A stretch of DNA of 56,119 nt. Source: a virus. This document shows, piece by piece, positions 5,208-55,879 of the stretch (positions are counted from its first letter, which is position 1; every line of letters begins with the position of its first letter). Position numbers and translations under genes: made by a program. Under the pieces are notes generated by a model that was not told the origin of the DNA, made no database searches, and was given only the letters and a program-made list of their open reading frames with translations. Where the stretch lies: IMG/VR virus record IMGVR_UViG_3300036801_000212, positions 64,001 through 120,119 of that record; one strand, given 5' to 3'.

Positions 5208-7103
5208 GTGAAAGACGAAAACCCCGAGGTAATTGAGGCTACCCTCGATCAGTTGGAATTGTTCAAAAGGCTTAAAAGGAAAAGTGAACTTCTAGAGCGT
5301 GCGATTGCGTTGAAGTCGGCGGATAAACCTCGACCTTGGCATTCGAAGGCCCGCGAGAAACAATTAGAACCTCAAGGCGATTTCTCGGTATGGCTCGTAA
5401 TGGCGGGCAGAGGCTGGGGAAAGACGGAAGTCGGGGCGAACTGGCTCGCTGAACAGGCCGTGAAGAATCCCGATACTGAATGGGCCATCGTTGCTCCCAC
5501 TTGGCGGGATTGTAAGAAAACGTGCATCGAAGGCAAATCGGGACTTTTGAAGGCTTTCCTTCCGGGCGAGCTTGATTCATTGAACGCTTCCGACTTGACC
5601 GTGAGATTGAAGAACGGCTCCAAAATCTATGGGTATTCCGCTGATGGTTACGACAGATTACGTGGGTCGAACCTTTCCGGTGCATGGATAGACGAGGCCG
5701 CCGCGATGGGCTCCGTGGATGACATGTTCAGGGAGGCTTTGCTGCCTGCTTTGCGTATCGGCAAGAACCCTCGAGTTCTCATCACCACTACTCCTCGGCC
5801 GATTCAGTTCCTGAAGGAGCTAATCGCACGGGAGGACGGCTCGGTCTATGTAACAAAGGGTTCGACGTGGGAGAACGCGGAGAATCTATCCGAGAGCGCC
5901 TTGACGGAGTTGAGGGTTCGTTACGAGGACACTCGAATCGGCCGCCAGGAGCTTGAGGGCGAGCTTCTTGACGACATCGAAGGTGCTCTCTGGAATCATC
6001 AAACCTTGGAAGACACAAGGATACAGAAATCTGAACTTCCGCAGTTGTCGCGAATTGTTGTCGGCGTTGACCCAGCTGTTACTAGTGGTGACAAATCCGA
6101 CTTCACGGGAATTATCGTGGCCGGTCGCTGTCATGATGGTCATCTATACATTCTTGATGATTTAACGATGAAGGGCACTCCTCATCAGTGTATGGCCAAG
6201 GCCATTGGCGCTTACCACAAGTGGCACGCGGACAGAATTGTCGGCGAGGTCAATAACGGTGGGGACTACATCGAGTCTGTTCTGCGTTCGATTGATTCGA
6301 ATGTCGCGTATAAAACTGTCCGTGCGACAAGGGGCAAGTTGGTTCGTGCTGAACCTATCTCCGCACTGTGGGAGCAGGGTAGGGGTCATATTGTTGGGTA
6401 CCTTCCGAAGTTGGAAGACCAGATGGCCACTTATACGGCGGACGCCAAGAAGAGTCCCGATGAGCTCGATGCGTGCTTCATTGCGGGGACGCCGGTTCTG
6501 ACGTCTTCGGGCGAAGTTCCGATCGAGAAGGTAGTCCCTGGCGATCTGGTTTGGACCCGTGCTGGCTGGAAGCCTGTCCTTCGCAGTGAATGTACACGGC
6601 GTGATGCAACCGTGATGAGCGTCAAACTGTCGAACGGGAATATTTTAACGGGAACTCCAAGCCACCGGATATGGACAGGGAATGGTTGGACTCGTCTCGA
6701 TGATCTCGTTTGTGGTGATATCCTAGAAGGATGGACGACTACCCATCAAGTATCGAATTCCAAGGGTTCACCTAGCGTCTTGTGCCGTGCCCCGTCTGTA
6801 CCACTGAGTTCTGGCAGTCTAATTATCGCGCCAAGCCCGCGACGTGCAGCCTTAAGTGTAGTTGGGTTATTCGCCGAGCCCGCGAAGAAGGACGTCTACG
6901 ACCTGATGGTGGCGCAGCAGCATGAGTTTGTCGCCGCGGGCGCTGTAGTTCATAACTGCGTTTGGGCCTGTACTGAATTAAATATGGGCGCGTCGGCAGC
7001 CATTTGGCTGTCGGCGATTTCGTCTATGTGCGATAACCCTGACTGCGGTTTCGCTAACACAAAAGGTGCGGCTTTCTGTCTCAGATGTCGTGAGCCTCTG
7101 TAA
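5208..7103 (+). CDS. Terminase large subunit, interrupted by a mini-intein
   Basis: The ATPase/nuclease motor packages phage DNA into proheads. Walker A is AGRGWGKT (residues about 66-73) and Walker B is GAWIDEA (about 160). The RNase H-like nuclease has the first acidic strand VVGVDPAVTSGDKSDF (about residue 287), then VNNGGDY, and a final P-D-E-L-D-A motif at residues 417-422. An intein of 161 residues is inserted right after that motif, before Cys584, where VWACTEL resumes the family pattern. The mature protein would be about 470 residues. The C-terminus adds a CDNPDCGF...FCLRC zinc ribbon. GTG start with GGAGGGG upstream. No small terminase subunit is visible nearby. Confidence 0.95.
   Translation: MKDENPEVIEATLDQLELFKRLKRKSELLERAIALKSADKPRPWHSKAREKQLEPQGDFSVWLVMAGRGWGKTEVGANWLAEQAVKNPDTEWAIVAPTWRDCKKTCIEGKSGLLKAFLPGELDSLNASDLTVRLKNGSKIYGYSADGYDRLRGSNLSGAWIDEAAAMGSVDDMFREALLPALRIGKNPRVLITTTPRPIQFLKELIAREDGSVYVTKGSTWENAENLSESALTELRVRYEDTRIGRQELEGELLDDIEGALWNHQTLEDTRIQKSELPQLSRIVVGVDPAVTSGDKSDFTGIIVAGRCHDGHLYILDDLTMKGTPHQCMAKAIGAYHKWHADRIVGEVNNGGDYIESVLRSIDSNVAYKTVRATRGKLVRAEPISALWEQGRGHIVGYLPKLEDQMATYTADAKKSPDELDACFIAGTPVLTSSGEVPIEKVVPGDLVWTRAGWKPVLRSECTRRDATVMSVKLSNGNILTGTPSHRIWTGNGWTRLDDLVCGDILEGWTTTHQVSNSKGSPSVLCRAPSVPLSSGSLIIAPSPRRAALSVVGLFAEPAKKDVYDLMVAQQHEFVAAGAVVHNCVWACTELNMGASAAIWLSAISSMCDNPDCGFANTKGAAFCLRCREPL
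6474..6956 (+). mobile_element. Mini-intein in the terminase nuclease domain
   Basis: The 161-residue insertion spans residues 423-583 of the terminase precursor. It begins with Cys (CFIAGTPVLTSSGEVPIEKV, block A), has a T-x-x-H block B (TGTPSHRIW), and ends with block F VYDLM...GAVVHN followed by Cys+1. All residues for class 1 splicing (Cys1, His in block B, penultimate His, terminal Asn, Cys+1) are present. There is no homing endonuclease domain, so it should splice but not home by itself. The site, next to the last catalytic acidic residues, means the motor is inactive until splicing. Confidence 0.92.
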
Positions 7104-45446: not shown

Positions 45447-45520
45447 TCCAGTTCAGCCTTCCGAATGTCGATCTCCGAGAAAATCTCGGACCACAGGTGC
45501 TCGAGGTCGACGTTACTCAT
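45440..45520 (-). CDS. Possible 26-residue protein, coupled to the membrane gene upstream
   Basis: The ATG overlaps the stop of the DUF475-type gene (ATGA) and the frame (SNVDLEHLWSEIFSEIDIRK...) ends overlapping the start of the methyltransferase gene. The acidic amphipathic helix and perfect tiling between the two genes support translation. Function unknown. Confidence 0.45.
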   Translation of the reverse strand: MSNVDLEHLWSEIFSEIDIRKAELEC

Positions 45521-46608
45521 GATCTGACATCTCGCTCGAACGACGCGACGCCGCCAAGCCAGTCGCGGCGCTGTCGAACGACGCTGGTGCCCAGGGCCAC
45601 GCCGATGAACACCACGCCGAGGGAACCGACCAGCCACTCCGGCAGGTGCACGCCGTACAGCTTCAACAGCATCACCACGCCCAGGAGCAGAATGGCCCAA
45701 TGGGCGCCGTGTTCGAGGTACCGGTACTTGGCGAGGGTGCCGGTGCGGACGAGATGCACGGTCATGGACCGGACCCACATGGCGCCGGCTCCGAGACCGG
45801 CCATGATGACCAGGACGGCGGTAGTGATGGCGAACGCCCCGATCACCCCGTCGAACGAGAACGAGGCGTCCAGCACCTCCAGTCGGATGAACATGATGCC
45901 GGCAGCAGCACCGATCAGTACTTGCACTCTCTGCGTTTCACCCTCGTCGGGGTTGTCAAACGCGGCGCCGAACATGTCGAGGCCGACGTGCAGCAGCACC
46001 CCGATGATCGCGGCAACGAACACGGGAGTGCGCTGTCCGTCATCGACGGTGAAGAACGCGACCACCGCGACGGCGATCATGACGAAGATGGTGATGTTGT
46101 CGAATCGGCCCAGCGGGGCCAGACGCGACTCCAGCCAGCCGATCCAGTGGACGTCTTTCTCGGCGTCAAGGAAGTAGCTGACTCCGATCATGAGCAGGAA
46201 CGTGCCGCCGAACGCGCCGATCATCGGTCCGGCCTGCACCAGGTGCTGTGCGTACACGGCTGGCTGATGGACGGCCAGGTTGACGACGTCCCCGAAGGAC
46301 AGCCCGGCGGCGAGTTGCACGATGAAGATGGGCAGCGCGAACCGGACCACGAAGACGGCGACCAAGATGCCGGCGGTCATGAACGCCTTCTGCCAGACCG
46401 GGGACATGCGGGTGACCAGTTTCGAGTTGACGACAGCGTTGTCGAAGCTGAACGTCACCTCAAGGAGGGTCAGGATGACCGCGGTGAGTAGCGTCGCTGG
46501 GCCGGCCGCGACGGCGACAGCGGCCCAGGCGAAGACGGTGACGGCAGCGGAAGGGCCGTAGATGCCCCACAGGTTTACCCGGCTCCGCGCTGGGGCAGAA
46601 GCAGTCAC
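45517..46608 (-). CDS. DUF475/TerC-like integral membrane protein, 363 aa
   Basis: Two diagnostic repeats are visible: LLEVTFSFDNAVVNSKLVTR (near residue 50) and LEVLDASFSFDGVIGAFAI (near 240), each with the acidic/Asn membrane motif of the TerC superfamily. About nine membrane helices are expected. TerC-type proteins act in metal export (manganese) and tellurite or envelope stress resistance together with TerD and vWA proteins. GTG at 46608 overlaps the stop of the vWA gene (GTGA), so the three form one operon. High GC at third positions, like its neighbours. Confidence 0.85.
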   Translation of the reverse strand: MTASAPARSRVNLWGIYGPSAAVTVFAWAAVAVAAGPATLLTAVILTLLEVTFSFDNAVVNSKLVTRMSPVWQKAFMTAGILVAVFVVRFALPIFIVQLAAGLSFGDVVNLAVHQPAVYAQHLVQAGPMIGAFGGTFLLMIGVSYFLDAEKDVHWIGWLESRLAPLGRFDNITIFVMIAVAVVAFFTVDDGQRTPVFVAAIIGVLLHVGLDMFGAAFDNPDEGETQRVQVLIGAAAGIMFIRLEVLDASFSFDGVIGAFAITTAVLVIMAGLGAGAMWVRSMTVHLVRTGTLAKYRYLEHGAHWAILLLGVVMLLKLYGVHLPEWLVGSLGVVFIGVALGTSVVRQRRDWLGGVASFERDVRS

Positions 46609-47378
46609 GACAGCACGCCGGCCTTCGCCGCGGCGGCGACCCAGGAGTCCCACTCGTCGGCCATGGCGTCGGCGAACACCAGATCGGACACCGATGCGGG
46701 GTCGGCGAAGAACTGTGCGTTGACGTTGTCGAGTAGCCGGTTGTCGGGGCTCATGTTGTCAAGCTCATTGAGATAGGGGACGTCGCGGATGGCCAGGAAC
46801 TTCAGGAACACCGGGTAGCTCGCCAGCTTGCACACGATGTCGGTCGTCGCCGGCTGGGAGTTCGGGTTGCCGTCGGTCACAACCGCGCAGAAGATCGGCT
46901 CGGTGGTGGTCTCCGCCAGCTCCCGGACCGCGATGAGAGCCGATGCCAAATCGGTGGTGCCCATTCGCTCCGGCCGCCAAATCCGCTGGTTGACGACGCC
47001 GCGGTAGTTGTCGACGGTCACATCGACGGCGGGATGGACGCACGAGTCAAACGGGATCACGGGGACGGTGCCGTCCAGGTCGATCTGCAAGGCGAACCCC
47101 AACACCCGCTCCACGAGGGTCTGGACCTTGCCGTTGGCGTAATCGGCGCGCATCGACCCGGAGTGGTCGAGCGCCAACACAGCCTGCGCGCGAATCCCGG
47201 CCAGGCCCCGCTTGGACAGGGCGATACCGGCTTTGTCGGCGCGCTTGGCCAGGTCGATGTGTCCGGCGTCGCGGACCTTCGACAGATTGATCGCTGAGTT
47301 TCCGGTGGAATCCTTGATCAGGTTGACGGTCCGCGACGGACGGAAAACGTCACCGCCTTTACGATTGAACAAGCGCAT
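46605..47378 (-). CDS. vWA-domain protein of the Ter system (TerF-like), 257 aa
   Basis: The N-terminus (VNLIKDSTGNSAINLSKVRD) carries the TerD-like NLSK motif. The vWA domain begins near residue 65 with the MIDAS site LDHSGSM; further conserved parts are MGTTDLASAL and VVTDGNPNSQ. Such proteins associate with TerD-family proteins and TerC-type membrane proteins. It lies between genes of both kinds. ATG with GAGAGGCAAC upstream. Confidence 0.85.
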   Translation of the reverse strand: MRLFNRKGGDVFRPSRTVNLIKDSTGNSAINLSKVRDAGHIDLAKRADKAGIALSKRGLAGIRAQAVLALDHSGSMRADYANGKVQTLVERVLGFALQIDLDGTVPVIPFDSCVHPAVDVTVDNYRGVVNQRIWRPERMGTTDLASALIAVRELAETTTEPIFCAVVTDGNPNSQPATTDIVCKLASYPVFLKFLAIRDVPYLNELDNMSPDNRLLDNVNAQFFADPASVSDLVFADAMADEWDSWVAAAAKAGVLS

Positions 47379-48486: not shown

Positions 48487-48568
48487 AGTCGGCAAGGCAA
48501 GGCTTGGCAAGGCAGGGCGCGGCGTGGCGGGGCAAGGCGAGGCAGGGGAAGTACTGAGTGGCCAGCAC
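48487..48568 (+). repeat. Truncated copy of the (GGCNN)n plus minihelix unit
   Basis: Twelve GGCNN pentanucleotides end in GGGGAAG, and bases 48542-48568 (27 nt) are identical to 53210-53236, the lead-in and first 13 bases of minihelix unit B. The copy breaks off before the T arm. It lies between the TerD gene and the attP core, which suggests that a recombination joined the array element to this site. Confidence 0.75.
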
Positions 48569-48578
48569 GGCACGAACC

Positions 48579-48592: not shown

Positions 48593-48716
48593 GATTTTGG
48601 GGCAAACTGGGTTTCACGGTCCGACACGTTTTCGACACTCTCCGATGTAATCCGACTGCAGACGCTACTTATAGTTACCTCAATGCGACCAACCTGGGAC
48701 TTTACCCCTCCGTCGC

Positions 48717-48763
48717 GCTGACTCTTAATCAGCGGGTTCGGGGTTCGAGTCCCTGGCGGCGCA
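48717..48763 (+). other. attP core: 3' part of tRNA-Lys(CUU)
   Basis: Forty-seven bases match the 3' part of an actinobacterial tRNA-Lys: anticodon arm GCTGA-CTCTTAA-TCAGC with anticodon CTT at 48724-48726, then GGGTTC, the T arm GGGGTTCGAGTCCC and acceptor end TGGCGGCGCA. The 5' part of the tRNA is absent (the bases before it are unrelated), so it is not a functional gene. It lies beside the integrase gene, as expected of a phage attachment site that restores the host tRNA on integration. Confidence 0.88.
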
Positions 48764-48814: not shown

Positions 48815-49960
48815 TCACTGGTCCGCCACAAGATCATGGGGCAAAAATGGGGCAGGTGGGTTGCGACTGCCAGCCAGCGCGGCGCGAACCTCATCGTGAC
48901 CGTCGTCCTGAAGATGTGAGTACCTTTGAGTCGTCGTGATCGACTCGTGGCCAAGCAGATATTGCACTCGCGCCAGGGAGACGCCGGCGGTGACCAGACG
49001 GCTGGCGTAGGTATGTCGACAGTCGTGCACCCGGGCGTGGCCCACCTCTGCTCGAGCCAGGGCACGCTTCCAGGTGACGTTGTTGAAGTTGTGCGGATCA
49101 ATCACCGCACCCTTCGGGCCGACCACGACAAGCTCTGATCGGCACACTGACCCTTTCGCGTGAGTGAAGCCACACTTCCTCGCCGAATTACTACTCTGCA
49201 GTAGTACTGTGTGTAGATGCCTGGACATCGGGATGGTCCTACGTTTTTTTCCCTTGGGGTAGGACTCGATGACCCTGTCGTACTGGTTCCATTTCTCGAC
49301 CACGTCGATAGTCCCCCGGTCGAAGTCGAGCCGATGCCGATGCAGTCCCACCGCTTCCCCCAGGCGCAGCCCGGTCTCCAGCAGGATGGTGGTCAGTACC
49401 CAGTACGGCCCGGACATCCGCGCGAGGATGAGTTCGACCTCATCGGCGGTGAAGTATCTTTCCGGCGCCGGAGGAAGGGTCGGCAAGGTGACCGCGTAGC
49501 ACGGAGAGTGATCAATGACGTTGGCCCGGATCGCGTCCTTCATTGACCGACTGAGCTGGTAGTAACACTGCCTCACCGTGGACGCGGAAAGATTCGGGCT
49601 CTTGGCGAGTTTGTTGATCCACACCTGGATGTCGGCATGTTCGATTTCGTTGAGCGGGACATCTTTCCAGCGGGGCTTGACATGCTGGTCCCTGAGGGTA
49701 ACCTGAGAACGCATGGTGCCGGCCTCCAGACTTCGGGTGGGCCACCATCGATCGCACCAATCCCCCCAGCGCATCCGGCCCTTGGACGGGTCGCGTCTGC
49801 TTCCCTCGATGACTTTTTGTTCCTGGGCACTGGCCCAGCGGTAGGCGCCTCGTTTGTGAACGAAAACCTGGGAGCGCTTGCTGCCATCGGCCAAACGGTA
49901 GATGCCCCGAACTTTCACTATCCCGGTCTTATCCGGGGGCAAATCTTCGGTCCAGGCCAT
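48815..49960 (-). CDS. int: Tyrosine integrase, 381 aa
   Basis: The catalytic set is complete: Arg in TGLRLGEAVGL (about residue 205), Lys in the beta hairpin region, HDCRHTYASRL (about 312-322), LLGHESITT (335) and Tyr in TTQRYSHL (345). The N-terminal part has an arm-binding domain (TGIVKVRGIYRLADGSKR) and a SAM-like core-binding region (IQVWINKLAKSPNLSASTVR). The ATG at 49960 has GAAAGGA upstream. It inserts and, with the excisionase, excises the phage at a host tRNA-Lys gene. Confidence 0.95.
   Translation of the reverse strand: MAWTEDLPPDKTGIVKVRGIYRLADGSKRSQVFVHKRGAYRWASAQEQKVIEGSRRDPSKGRMRWGDWCDRWWPTRSLEAGTMRSQVTLRDQHVKPRWKDVPLNEIEHADIQVWINKLAKSPNLSASTVRQCYYQLSRSMKDAIRANVIDHSPCYAVTLPTLPPAPERYFTADEVELILARMSGPYWVLTTILLETGLRLGEAVGLHRHRLDFDRGTIDVVEKWNQYDRVIESYPKGKKRRTIPMSRHLHTVLLQSSNSARKCGFTHAKGSVCRSELVVVGPKGAVIDPHNFNNVTWKRALARAEVGHARVHDCRHTYASRLVTAGVSLARVQYLLGHESITTTQRYSHLQDDGHDEVRAALAGSRNPPAPFLPHDLVADQ
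48829..48842 (+). repeat. Integrase arm-type repeat, right copy
   Basis: Second copy of CAAGATCATGGGGC. On the minus strand it encodes the last residues PHDL of the integrase, so site and coding sequence overlap. Confidence 0.5.
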
Positions 49961-50052
49961 GGCTTGATCCTTTCGCGACAGAGCGGCCGGCATAACCGGC
50001 GGCGGACGGGAATCAGATGGGGCGACAGCGGGCTGTCACGAAAGGTTGCTGA

Positions 50053-51905: not shown

Positions 51906-52487
51906 ATGATCATTAATCTGACCGGCAGCACCCCGCTAATGATGCACAGCAGCAGACTGGCGGACTCTGACGATTTCTTTACCAGAGCCATCGCCAAGAT
52001 CGTGGCCAAGCGCACCAACATGACCGACGATGACCGGCTTGAGAAGTCTCGACTGCAGTTCGCCGGCGGTCTGTACCACGACGAAGAAATCGGCCCCTAC
52101 CTCCCCGGACCGAACCTGGTTCGGTCTCTGCGGACTGCCGCACACCTGGTCAAGCACAACAAGGGTGGCGGGGAGATTGAGCGGGGATTCATTCTCCTCT
52201 CGGAGCGCGCACCCCTGGACTACGCGGGGCCTCGCGCCCTCGACGATCTCTGGAATGAAGGCGAATCCAAGTTCGTCGACCGCCGCATGGTGAAGATCGG
52301 TAAGTCGACCGTGTCCACCACTAGGCCGATTTTCGTCAACTGGGGGGCCCAGTTTGAGTTCGAACTGGACCCGAGCGAGATCGACGTCGAGGACTTCCAG
52401 GCCTATGCCGAGAAGTCCGGCAAGGTCGGGGTCGGTGACGCCCGCAAGATTGGGTACGGCCGATTCTCTGTCAAGATCGCCGACTAA
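51906..52487 (+). CDS. Conserved phage protein with RAMP-like glycine loop, 193 aa
   Basis: AAGGAAGGGCTAGG precedes the ATG. The sequence pattern (LTGSTPLMMHSSRLAD, GGLYHDEEIGPYLPGPNLVR SLRTAAH, then VGVGDARKIGYGRFSVKI) belongs to a family of phage early proteins that I recall as hypothetical. The last glycine-rich stretch resembles the G-loop of RAMP proteins such as Cas7/Cas5 and the ferredoxin-like order fits, but the link is only inferred. It is the first gene after the excisionase with its own good start. Confidence 0.68.
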   Translation: MIINLTGSTPLMMHSSRLADSDDFFTRAIAKIVAKRTNMTDDDRLEKSRLQFAGGLYHDEEIGPYLPGPNLVRSLRTAAHLVKHNKGGGEIERGFILLSERAPLDYAGPRALDDLWNEGESKFVDRRMVKIGKSTVSTTRPIFVNWGAQFEFELDPSEIDVEDFQAYAEKSGKVGVGDARKIGYGRFSVKIAD

Positions 52488-52510: not shown

Positions 52511-53041
52511 ATGGCGTTGAGTCCTTTTTCTCCCGCTGACGGAAAAGTGTCTCGGCTGCGACACTGTTACGGCCTCGTGGCTTCACGCGAAGCTGGCGAT
52601 GTGATTTCAGTTGAAGAGGTGATGGAGCTTTGCGACTGTGATCGGCCTACCGCGATTCAGGCCATGTGGAGTGTGAAGGCTCCCCTTGAGCGGGATGGTC
52701 TCAACTCGCTTGAGATCATCCGTCCCGGGGGTGGTGGCCGGGCATACGGCTGGCGCATATTGGATCGAGGCGTTCGCAATCTTGATGTTGTGGATGCGCG
52801 GGTTGCTAAGTCGCGCCGTGCTCAGGTTCGGGTGAGCCGTCTGATTAACAACACCGAGCGTGACCGTCTTGATCAGGTCGGTCGGATGCGCTACGACCGG
52901 CTGCAGTCGCACGCGTTGCGGGCCGCGGTGCTCTACGAGCGGAGGCCGTCGAGTTTGGCGGATTTACAGCGCAAGGCGGAGGAGCAGCGCCGCAAGCAGT
53001 TGCCTGGGCGTGATCCGGATGACGGCTCGAGAACGGCCTGA
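52511..53041 (+). CDS. Winged-helix-like protein preceding the minihelix array, 176 aa
   Basis: The N-terminal part (HCYGLVASREAGDVISVEEV MELCDCDRPTAIQAMWSV) reads as a winged helix-turn-helix, with GGGGRAYGWRIL as a likely wing. The C-terminal 90 residues are strongly basic and helical (KSRRAQVRVSRLINNTERDR, DLQRKAEEQRRKQLPG), suited to nucleic-acid binding. The first pentanucleotide tract of the array starts within 10 bases of the stop. It may be the protein partner of that RNA, which is inference from position. Confidence 0.6.
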   Translation: MALSPFSPADGKVSRLRHCYGLVASREAGDVISVEEVMELCDCDRPTAIQAMWSVKAPLERDGLNSLEIIRPGGGGRAYGWRILDRGVRNLDVVDARVAKSRRAQVRVSRLINNTERDRLDQVGRMRYDRLQSHALRAAVLYERRPSSLADLQRKAEEQRRKQLPGRDPDDGSRTA

Positions 53042-53107
53042 GGACTTTCAAGGCGCGGCGCGGCATGGCGCGGCAAGGCGTGGCTAGGCGAGGCGAGGGA
53101 AAGCAGA

Positions 53108-53153
53108 TGGGCGGATGGCATACACCCAGGTTCGAGTCTTGGGCGCCCACGCA
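53108..53153 (+). ncRNA. Minihelix unit A
   Basis: Acceptor TGGGCG/CGCCCA (6 pairs), bridge GATGGCATACA, T arm CCCAGG-TTCGAGT-CTTGGG (one G-T), tail CGCA. Confidence 0.8.
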
Positions 53154-53223
53154 CGGCGTGGCATGGCATGGCGGGGCATGGCTGGGCTTGGCGTGGCAGG
53201 GCCGGGCAGGGCAGGGGAAGTAC

Positions 53224-53269
53224 TGAGTGGCCAGCAGGCACCGACGTGCGAGCCGTCGGCACTCACGCA
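53224..53269 (+). ncRNA. Minihelix unit B
   Basis: Acceptor TGAGTG/CACTCA (6 pairs), bridge GCCAGCAGGCA, T arm CCGACG-TGCGAGC-CGTCGG (6 pairs), tail CGCA. The bridge and loop differ most from the other units, yet both stems are fully paired. Its lead-in is duplicated at 48542-48568. Confidence 0.8.
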
Positions 53270-53331
53270 CGGCGCGGCTCGGCACGGCGTGGCCGGGCAG
53301 GGCTGGGCAAGGCGTGGCGAGGGATAGCTGG

Positions 53332-53377
53332 AGAGCGGACGGCATACATCGAGGTTCGGGTCCTCGACGCTCACGCA
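53332..53377 (+). ncRNA. Minihelix unit C
   Basis: Acceptor AGAGCG/CGCTCA (5 of 6 pairs), bridge GACGGCATACA, T arm TCGAGG-TTCGGGT-CCTCGA (6 pairs), tail CGCA. Confidence 0.8.
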
Positions 53378-53444
53378 CGGCTAGGCAAGGCCCGGCTCGG
53401 CTGGGCATGGCTGGGCAAGGCTAGTCAGGGCGAGGGAAGTTCGG

Positions 53445-53490
53445 CGGGTGAACGGCATACACCGCGGTTCGAGTCTGCGGCACCCACGCA
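53445..53490 (+). ncRNA. Minihelix unit D
   Basis: Acceptor CGGGTG/CACCCA (5 of 6 pairs), bridge AACGGCATACA, T arm CCGCGG-TTCGAGT-CTGCGG (one G-T), tail CGCA. Confidence 0.8.
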
Positions 53491-53551
53491 CGGCGTGGCA
53501 TGGCACGGCGGGGCCCGGCACGGCGAGGCAAAGCGAGGCGAGGGAAGCAGA

Positions 53552-53597
53552 TGGGTGAATGGCATGCACTCGGGTTCGAGCCCCGAGCACCCACGCA
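53552..53597 (+). ncRNA. Minihelix unit E
   Basis: Acceptor TGGGTG/CACCCA (6 pairs), bridge AATGGCATGCA, T arm CTCGGG-TTCGAGC-CCCGAG (6 pairs), tail CGCA. Last unit; no GGCNN tract follows it. Confidence 0.8.
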
Positions 53598-53610
53598 ACA
53601 AACAAGTGAA

Positions 53611-55372: not shown

Positions 55373-55879
55373 TTGCCACACCGTGAACCGAACCCCGGAT
55401 TCGATAGGGGCTATTTCGGGATTGCCGTCTATCAGCCGAAGACCGAGGTCAACATCGGAAGTCTCTGGAGATCAGCTTCTGCTTTCGGAGCTGCTTTTAT
55501 CGCCACCGTAGGGAGGCGTTACCCAACTCGGCAAGCATCAGACACGACTTACGCCTCGAAGTACATCCCGTTATTTAACTTCCCGACCATGGATGATCTA
55601 CTAGGACATCTCCCCAATTCCTGTCCTCTAGTGGGTGTCGAGCTCGACACCCGAGCGAAGAGTTTGAACACATATCATCATCGGGAACGAGCGCTGTATT
55701 TGCTTGGCGCGGAAGATAGAGGTATACCTCCGAAGGTTTTGGACATGTGTCACGATTTGGTGCAGATTCCCACCGTGACACCGTGGTCCATCAACTTAGC
55801 CTGCGCTGGGTCGATTCTTCTTGCGAGCCGCCACATGTCCCACCTTCTCCTAAAGACCGCAATGAACGAGGAGGCATAG
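55373..55879 (+). CDS. SpoU (TrmH/TrmL-like) RNA 2'-O-methyltransferase, 168 aa
   Basis: The three SpoU motifs are present: motif 1 VNIGSLWRSASAFGA (residues about 23-37), motif 2 LYLLGAEDRGIPPKVLDMC (about 105-123) and motif 3 VQIPTVTPWSINLACAGSILL (about 126-146). These trefoil-knot enzymes methylate ribose 2'-OH in tRNA or rRNA; the short TrmL-like size suggests a tRNA target. TTG start with AAGGAG upstream. Having a tRNA-type modification enzyme in the operon that carries tRNA-like RNAs is notable. Confidence 0.85.
   Translation: MPHREPNPGFDRGYFGIAVYQPKTEVNIGSLWRSASAFGAAFIATVGRRYPTRQASDTTYASKYIPLFNFPTMDDLLGHLPNSCPLVGVELDTRAKSLNTYHHRERALYLLGAEDRGIPPKVLDMCHDLVQIPTVTPWSINLACAGSILLASRHMSHLLLKTAMNEEA

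Follow-up and report, generated by a model that had tools for sequence, protein, structure and literature searches.

tRNA-like minihelices between the guide tracts of a predicted phage VIPR array and between the genes of other phages

The window, by which we mean the whole stretch of 56,119 nucleotides (nt) of viral DNA analysed here (IMG/VR record IMGVR_UViG_3300036801_000212, positions 64,001 to 120,119), contains a region that we assign, from homology, gene order and a structural model, to a VIPR (Viral Interference Programmable Repeat) locus with a vipr gene, a vap-like gene and five arrayed guide RNAs (vrRNAs). The guide tracts alternate with five 40-nt elements, termed minihelices, which imitate the acceptor stem and T-arm of a tRNA. 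We consider it fairly probable that the minihelices are processing sites releasing five separate vrRNAs for the Vipr protein, and that the same element serves as gene punctuation in phages without VIPR. The chances are about even for the broader proposal of a phage RNA class that directs RNase P and RNase Z of the host to cut phage transcripts, giving single-gene mRNAs from operons and guides from VIPR arrays, in contigs and prophage-like loci of Actinomycetota, Bacteroidota and Gemmatimonadota.

The VIPR locus

VIPR was described in 2026 (PMC13142463; bioRxiv 2026.04.26.720920) and, as outlined in the main text of that paper, combines a phage-encoded RAMP protein with guide RNAs of GGY/NN repeats, which skip one base when reading DNA. 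The features of the window locus, with the scores of the minihelices from covariance model R1, are:

51906 to 52487, + strand: vipr gene, 193-residue RAMP protein, phrog_4652, assigned by phmmer, family profile, AlphaFold and Foldseek
52511 to 53041, + strand: candidate vap (VIPR accessory) gene, 176 residues, assigned by its conserved position 3' of vipr
53052 to 53096, + strand: vrRNA tract 1, 9 x GGCNN
53109 to 53150, + strand: minihelix 1, 40-nt stem-loop and A73-C74, 58.0 bits
53155 to 53214, + strand: vrRNA tract 2, 12 x GGCNN
53225 to 53266, + strand: minihelix 2, variant elbow with A.G in place of G.T, 51 bits, identical copy in a second array
53271 to 53320, + strand: vrRNA tract 3, 10 x GGCNN
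53333 to 53374, + strand: minihelix 3, 54.7 bits
53379 to 53433, + strand: vrRNA tract 4, 11 in-phase pentamers, one with GTC for GGC
53446 to 53487, + strand: minihelix 4, 58.5 bits
53492 to 53541, + strand: vrRNA tract 5, 10 in-phase pentamers, one with AGC for GGC
53553 to 53594, + strand: minihelix 5, 62.9 bits
48491 to 48573, + strand: relic unit, a GGCNN tract followed by a minihelix broken off after the linker, 83% identity to the unit 2 region

Each of the five units consists of a GGCNN tract, a tail of 10-13 nt such as GAGGGAAAGCAGA, the 40-nt minihelix, and A-CGCAC, and the array ends at about 53600. With 9-12 pentamers, the tracts fall within the 9-16 alternating GGY/NN repeats of vrRNAs. 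The product of 51906-52487 matches the SUSP1 Vipr protein in the PDB (36pp_D; phmmer, E=9e-17) and the family profile (E=7e-49), and it has the single RRM core and the glycine-rich loop of Vipr proteins. Its AlphaFold model has a pLDDT of 97.3, and the top Foldseek matches of the model are Csm3/Cas7 RAMPs. GGCNN tracts are frequent in viral contigs, where they stand 3' of a gene with a glycine-rich C-terminus. Profile searches found a vipr homologue in 98 of 135 tract-bearing loci versus 10 of 304 tract-free loci, and 300 nearby tracts lie on the strand of vipr versus one on the opposite strand. This association rules out that GGCNN is an unrelated low-complexity repeat. The candidate vap gene adjoins vipr and has no match in Pfam or PHROG; its homologues are found directly 3' of vipr in nearly all of 40 matches in the loci examined. 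Because of the vipr homology, the GGCNN tracts and this conserved partner gene, the region is identified as a VIPR locus. Cluster F mycobacteriophages such as Donkeykong have GGCNN tracts under annotated open reading frames (ORFs), and calls such as gp48 may be vrRNA arrays instead of ORFs.

Like the VIPR systems of the published main text (PMC13142463), the window locus is phage-encoded and has a RAMP protein homologous to SUSP1 Vipr, same-strand arrays of GGY/NN pentamers and a partner gene, but its guides are separated by tRNA-like minihelices. The array types given there are spaced, staggered, hammerhead-interspersed and single-vrRNA; the word tRNA is not used in that main text and the minihelix-separated form is absent from it. 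By Rfam cmscan, no hammerhead was found in the window or in 15 GGCNN-array loci, nearly all with minihelices, nor in 16 other GGCNN-array loci.

Structure and covariation of the minihelix

The covariance model detects five elements on the + strand of the window (51-63 bits, E<=3e-8) and no further match in the window at E<=1. The sequence-only reading had described five mimics of the tRNA acceptor and T-arm with an exact 6-11-6-7-6-6-4 layout and a conserved bridge. The elements and the mimicry hold, but the sixth, outermost acceptor pair exists only in units 1, 2 and 5 (A.A in unit 3, C.A in unit 4), which leaves 5-11-6-7-6-5 and then A73-C74 as the conserved layout. Likewise, the bridge is identical in units 1, 3 and 4 (GGCATACA) but differs in unit 2 (AGCAGGCA) and unit 5 (GGCATGCA). 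The T-loops of units 1 to 5 are TTCGAGT, TGCGAGC, TTCGGGT, TTCGAGT and TTCGAGC. In RNA folding, the minimum-energy fold of four of the five units consists of the acceptor stem and T-arm; unit 2 forms an additional 3-bp hairpin in the linker.

Hundreds of copies, from viral contigs and from isolate phages, were detected by a scanner whose sole requirements were an acceptor stem, a short linker and a T-arm ending in a T-loop; tertiary pairs were not imposed. Covariation was assessed for 15 pairs in 97 copies of less than 86% pairwise identity. Standard pairs make up 99.8% of the cells, a value inflated for the stems because the scanner demanded paired stems; both sides change in 13 pairs, and none of 500 shuffles reached the paired percentage or the covariation score. 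The earlier claim that base pairing is under selection is thus borne out. Three tertiary pairs are 100% paired in the 97 copies and change on both sides: 7-13, which joins linker 2 and linker 8 (CG, AU, GC or UA), 14-29, which joins linker 9 and T-loop 7 (six types of pair), and 15-28, which joins linker 10 and T-loop 6 (CG or GC). The counterpart of G19-C56, the elbow pair of tRNA, is formed by linker G5 and loop C3 and is invariant, and the analogue of G18-Psi55, linker 4 with loop 2, switches jointly from G/T to A/G (16 copies each). The minihelix therefore has counterparts of the T-loop/D-loop pairs that define the tRNA elbow (G18-55 and G19-C56). With these pairs, the 11-nt linker forms a miniature D-loop, by which the elbow is rebuilt.

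The common class of minihelices (class A) has an 11-bp stack compared with the 12 bp of tRNA. A second class (class B), with the linker ATGGTCGNAR and the loop TTCGACT, usually matches tRNA with a stack of 12 bp. In Rfam 15 no family scored above its gathering score, the only match being a tRNA in locus L312, and ARAGORN and Rfam identified no tRNA in the window, where a cloverleaf with D and anticodon arms is not found. The minihelix is a compact new RNA fold of 40 nt with a covarying elbow. The earlier statement that no phage RNA of this form had been described agrees with Rfam 15 as far as the minihelix is concerned, but the intervening tracts belong to an RNA that has been described, the vrRNA. 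Those GGCNN tracts had gone unmentioned in the sequence-only reading, as had the second array and the relic unit at 48491-48573.

These data also bear on the origin of the element. A genuine tRNA-Lys attachment (att) core lies nearby, at 48715-48762, and it might be thought that the minihelices are tRNA gene fragments or recombination (att) targets. This is hardly conceivable, since the covarying mini-D-loop and pseudoknot are specific to the element and absent from tRNA, and the minihelices look unlike the probable att core next to the integrase. Fragments of host tRNA genes, which had been named as a possible refutation of the mimicry, are ruled out by this element-specific covariation and by the lack of a tRNA in the window.

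Minihelices as separators in VIPR arrays

A second five-unit array is located on the - strand of the same 120,119-base contig (G000:C1:56710-57271). The two arrays have four minihelices in common, three identical at 46/46 positions and one at 45/46, and their GGCNN tracts are unlike in length and in NN content. Different guides set in a constant frame would give this picture, and the second array contributes five further guides. Across the minihelix-bearing VIPR loci, the distance from tract to minihelix is mostly 8-14 nt and that from minihelix to next tract mostly 6-9 nt. A minihelix precedes the first tract in L152, L301, L324, L338 and Gordonia phage Trine; in other arrays, L109 and L299 at least, the final tract leads into the next gene and no minihelix follows it. 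Because of the regular spacing, the minihelix-first arrays and the tracts without a following minihelix, the minihelix in VIPR arrays is a fencepost separator.

Alternatively, the minihelix could be the 3' tail, or handle, of the vrRNAs of this VIPR clade, kept on the guide and bound by Vipr, a fate that may also apply to the structured tail of the SUSP1 vrRNAs. In the window a minihelix with pseudoknot pairs is found 3' of each tract, where it is the sole structured tail; the tails of SUSP1-clade vrRNAs have a pseudoknot according to the main text of the VIPR paper (PMC13142463), and other clades have other structured segments between their tracts. However, the same element is common in Vipr-free phages, some tracts are not followed by a minihelix while some arrays begin with one, and a short conserved GGGAAAG-like tail already lies between tract and minihelix. 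We therefore regard a handle as unlikely. Quite different structured segments separate the GGCNN tracts in other VIPR clades (L135, L144, L173, L205, L137), and those of L135, L205 and L137 have no Rfam match. In L312, a complete tRNA-Ile(GAT) without CCA (1840-1914) heads a minihelix VIPR array, 20 nt ahead of its first tract.

Minihelices in phages without VIPR

As an RNA class of phages, the minihelix is widespread. It is present in the Streptomyces phages Endor1, phiCAM, Lannister, Yosif and Izzy and in the Mycobacterium phages Oaker and Indlulamithi, all without VIPR. In those phages it occupies most of the longer gaps between accessory genes, one per gap and on the coding strand. Among 65 loci with at least three elements, 52 have no Vipr in the stretch examined, one of which (L008) belongs to the window's own contig. 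A scan of 84,980 bacterial genomes yielded 12 stretches, including ones from Hymenobacter (Bacteroidota) and Gemmatimonadota, and in each of five bacterial genomes searched whole the matches were grouped in one locus; an element of the host itself is thereby ruled out.

Placement was counted for 358 copies. A stop codon ends 6-8 nt before the element in 185 cases compared with 44 expected, and motifs like those of Shine-Dalgarno sites occur 20-39 nt 3' of the element. A purine occupies position 73 in 97% of the copies and a C position 74 in the same share, and N-1, the nucleotide before the element, is usually an A that faces A73 and is unpaired. A terminator is ruled out because TTTT follows only 2 of the 358 elements and a U-tract is lacking. 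The distance to the stop codon would also suit a folded roadblock that is never cut, and that shields RNA ends from exonucleases or insulates units from ribosomes: the element starts about where a terminating ribosome leaves it folded, as follows from general ribosome geometry, and its GC-rich fold with tertiary pairs is compact. Yet a roadblock needs neither a tRNA elbow nor R73-C74 nor an unpaired N-1, all of which are conserved, and this explanation appears quite unlikely. A role as decoy or sponge, occupying RNase P, EF-Tu or defence nucleases that cut tRNAs, would account for the several copies and for the tRNA mimicry, but one element per gap, a fixed distance to the stop codon and the fencepost order are not expected of a sponge, which makes this idea highly improbable. 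Decoys, tags or recombination targets, proposed by the sequence-only reading as the primary role, thus give way to elements that separate vrRNA tracts and, elsewhere, genes.

Other gaps contain different forms with the same acceptor/T-arm core. One is a 12-bp hairpin without a linker, while others have a D-arm or come close to a whole tRNA. Examples at L257 17840-17870 and L444 10315-10366 are the linkerless T-loop hairpin of 12 bp and a form whose linker hairpin is longer, and L444 also has gaps with D-armed and near-full tRNA-like forms. Since acceptor and T-arm stay constant across the linkerless, D-armed and near-full forms, the middle seems to be dispensable. This concerns a further alternative, in which the element binds a host or phage protein (a tRNA-modifying enzyme, an antitermination factor or EF-Tu) and so regulates expression. 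The elbow and T-loop are conserved and a phage gene for a SpoU/TrmL-like methylase is close to the array, but only the acceptor/T-arm core is common to the diverse, unrelated phages and forms, and we consider such binding very doubtful.

In L287, a contig of 39% GC for which no relative was found among the isolate phages, six minihelix variants with tails that are mostly NCTAA occur within 4 kb, and some of them end 16-17 nt before start codons. In the leftward operon of Endor1 (L254, 41669-48530, - strand), TGTGACAGTG is repeated at eight sites, including short gaps free of minihelices, and is possibly a stoperator or promoter motif.

A proposed processing mechanism

As processing sites, the minihelices would be cut by host enzymes. 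RNase P would cleave immediately 5' of each minihelix and leave a guide 3' end with the 10-13-nt tail, and RNase Z would cleave after A73 and provide the 5' end of the next guide, so that five individual vrRNAs become available to Vipr. In phages lacking VIPR, the same element would act as punctuation between genes. What is observed is the identity of the locus, the structure with its tertiary covariation, the placement and the fencepost order; transcription, cleavage, the cutting enzymes and guide function are what we infer. Cutting is favoured because of the fencepost order, the Vipr-free occurrence, the tRNA-Ile at the head of the L312 array, and the arrays with hammerhead ribozymes between guides, reported in the main text of the VIPR paper (PMC13142463), which show that cutting elements can be part of a VIPR array itself. 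The features that RNase P reads in a substrate are the acceptor/T-arm stack, the T-loop and RCC; RNase Z holds the elbow in a clamp, and CCA blocks it (PMC11143913, PMC4919913). The minihelix has R73-C74, an unpaired N-1 and G1-C72, and lacks CCA. Relative to the 12 bp expected for RNase P, the stack has 11 bp in class A and 12 bp in class B and other forms.

Several points weigh against processing. The common class falls one pair short of the tRNA stack, the stem-pairing percentages are inflated as stated above, and the handle remains a competitor. C75 is not conserved (T or G), and U at N-1 favours the RNase P of E. coli, while the commonest N-1 of the minihelix is A. Guide targets were not found either: three 20-base guides have no exact match in the viral_contigs set, a local target search in the loci examined stayed at background level for every skip length, and no near-perfect self target of the guides was found. 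Neither the empty exact scans nor the background-level local search thus confirmed the 1-nt skip rule.

The proposed arrangement has several precedents. In mitochondria, tRNAs punctuate polycistronic RNA by standing between its genes. The minihelices likewise stand between genes of polycistronic RNA, but they lack D and anticodon arms, are not translating tRNAs and belong to phage operons. Engineered polycistronic tRNA-guide RNA arrays also alternate guides with tRNA or tRNA-like units, from which RNase P and RNase Z of the host can free them (PMC9120480), but those contain whole tRNAs, whereas the window array is natural and phage-encoded and has minimal 40-nt elements, whose cleavage is a prediction. 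Model substrates of RNase P share the stacked acceptor and T-arm with R73-C74 (PMC11143913, PMC11221534); in contrast, the minihelices form a natural family in which a mini-D-loop restores the elbow; they lack CCA, and their common class has 11 bp.

VIPR has been proposed as an ancestor-like relative of CRISPR, and guide maturation is open for most of its types. The minihelix arrays suggest a testable answer, in which tRNA-like elements are cut by host enzymes. If true, this would be a natural forerunner of the synthetic tRNA-guide RNA arrays and a second route to mature vrRNAs besides hammerhead ribozymes. Punctuation by such an element across many phage operons would change how phage transcripts are read, and the minihelix offers a minimal separator for guide arrays.

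Contig context and host

The 3' end of a tRNA-Lys(CTT) at 48715-48762 lies beside a tyrosine integrase gene (48815-49993) and is the probable att core. Its best matches in actinobacterial genomes reach 98%, in several genomes of 7-10 Mb including Streptomyces pyxinicus. Because the att core matches actinobacterial tRNA-Lys genes, the host is probably a Streptomyces-like actinomycete; the right-hand flank has no DNA similarity to 296 Actinomycetota genomes. The SpoU/TrmL-like RNA 2'-O-methyltransferase gene (Pfam PF00588) is located at 55373-55879, 1.8 kb 3' of the array. The window further encodes a terminase large subunit ORF (5208-7103), whose C-terminal part matches Hint/intein domains, and a gene of the TerC/DUF475 family (45517-46653). 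At the contig end (56000-56119) there are tandem repeats of about 24-27 bp (GACTCGTCCACGGTGACGGCCTAC).
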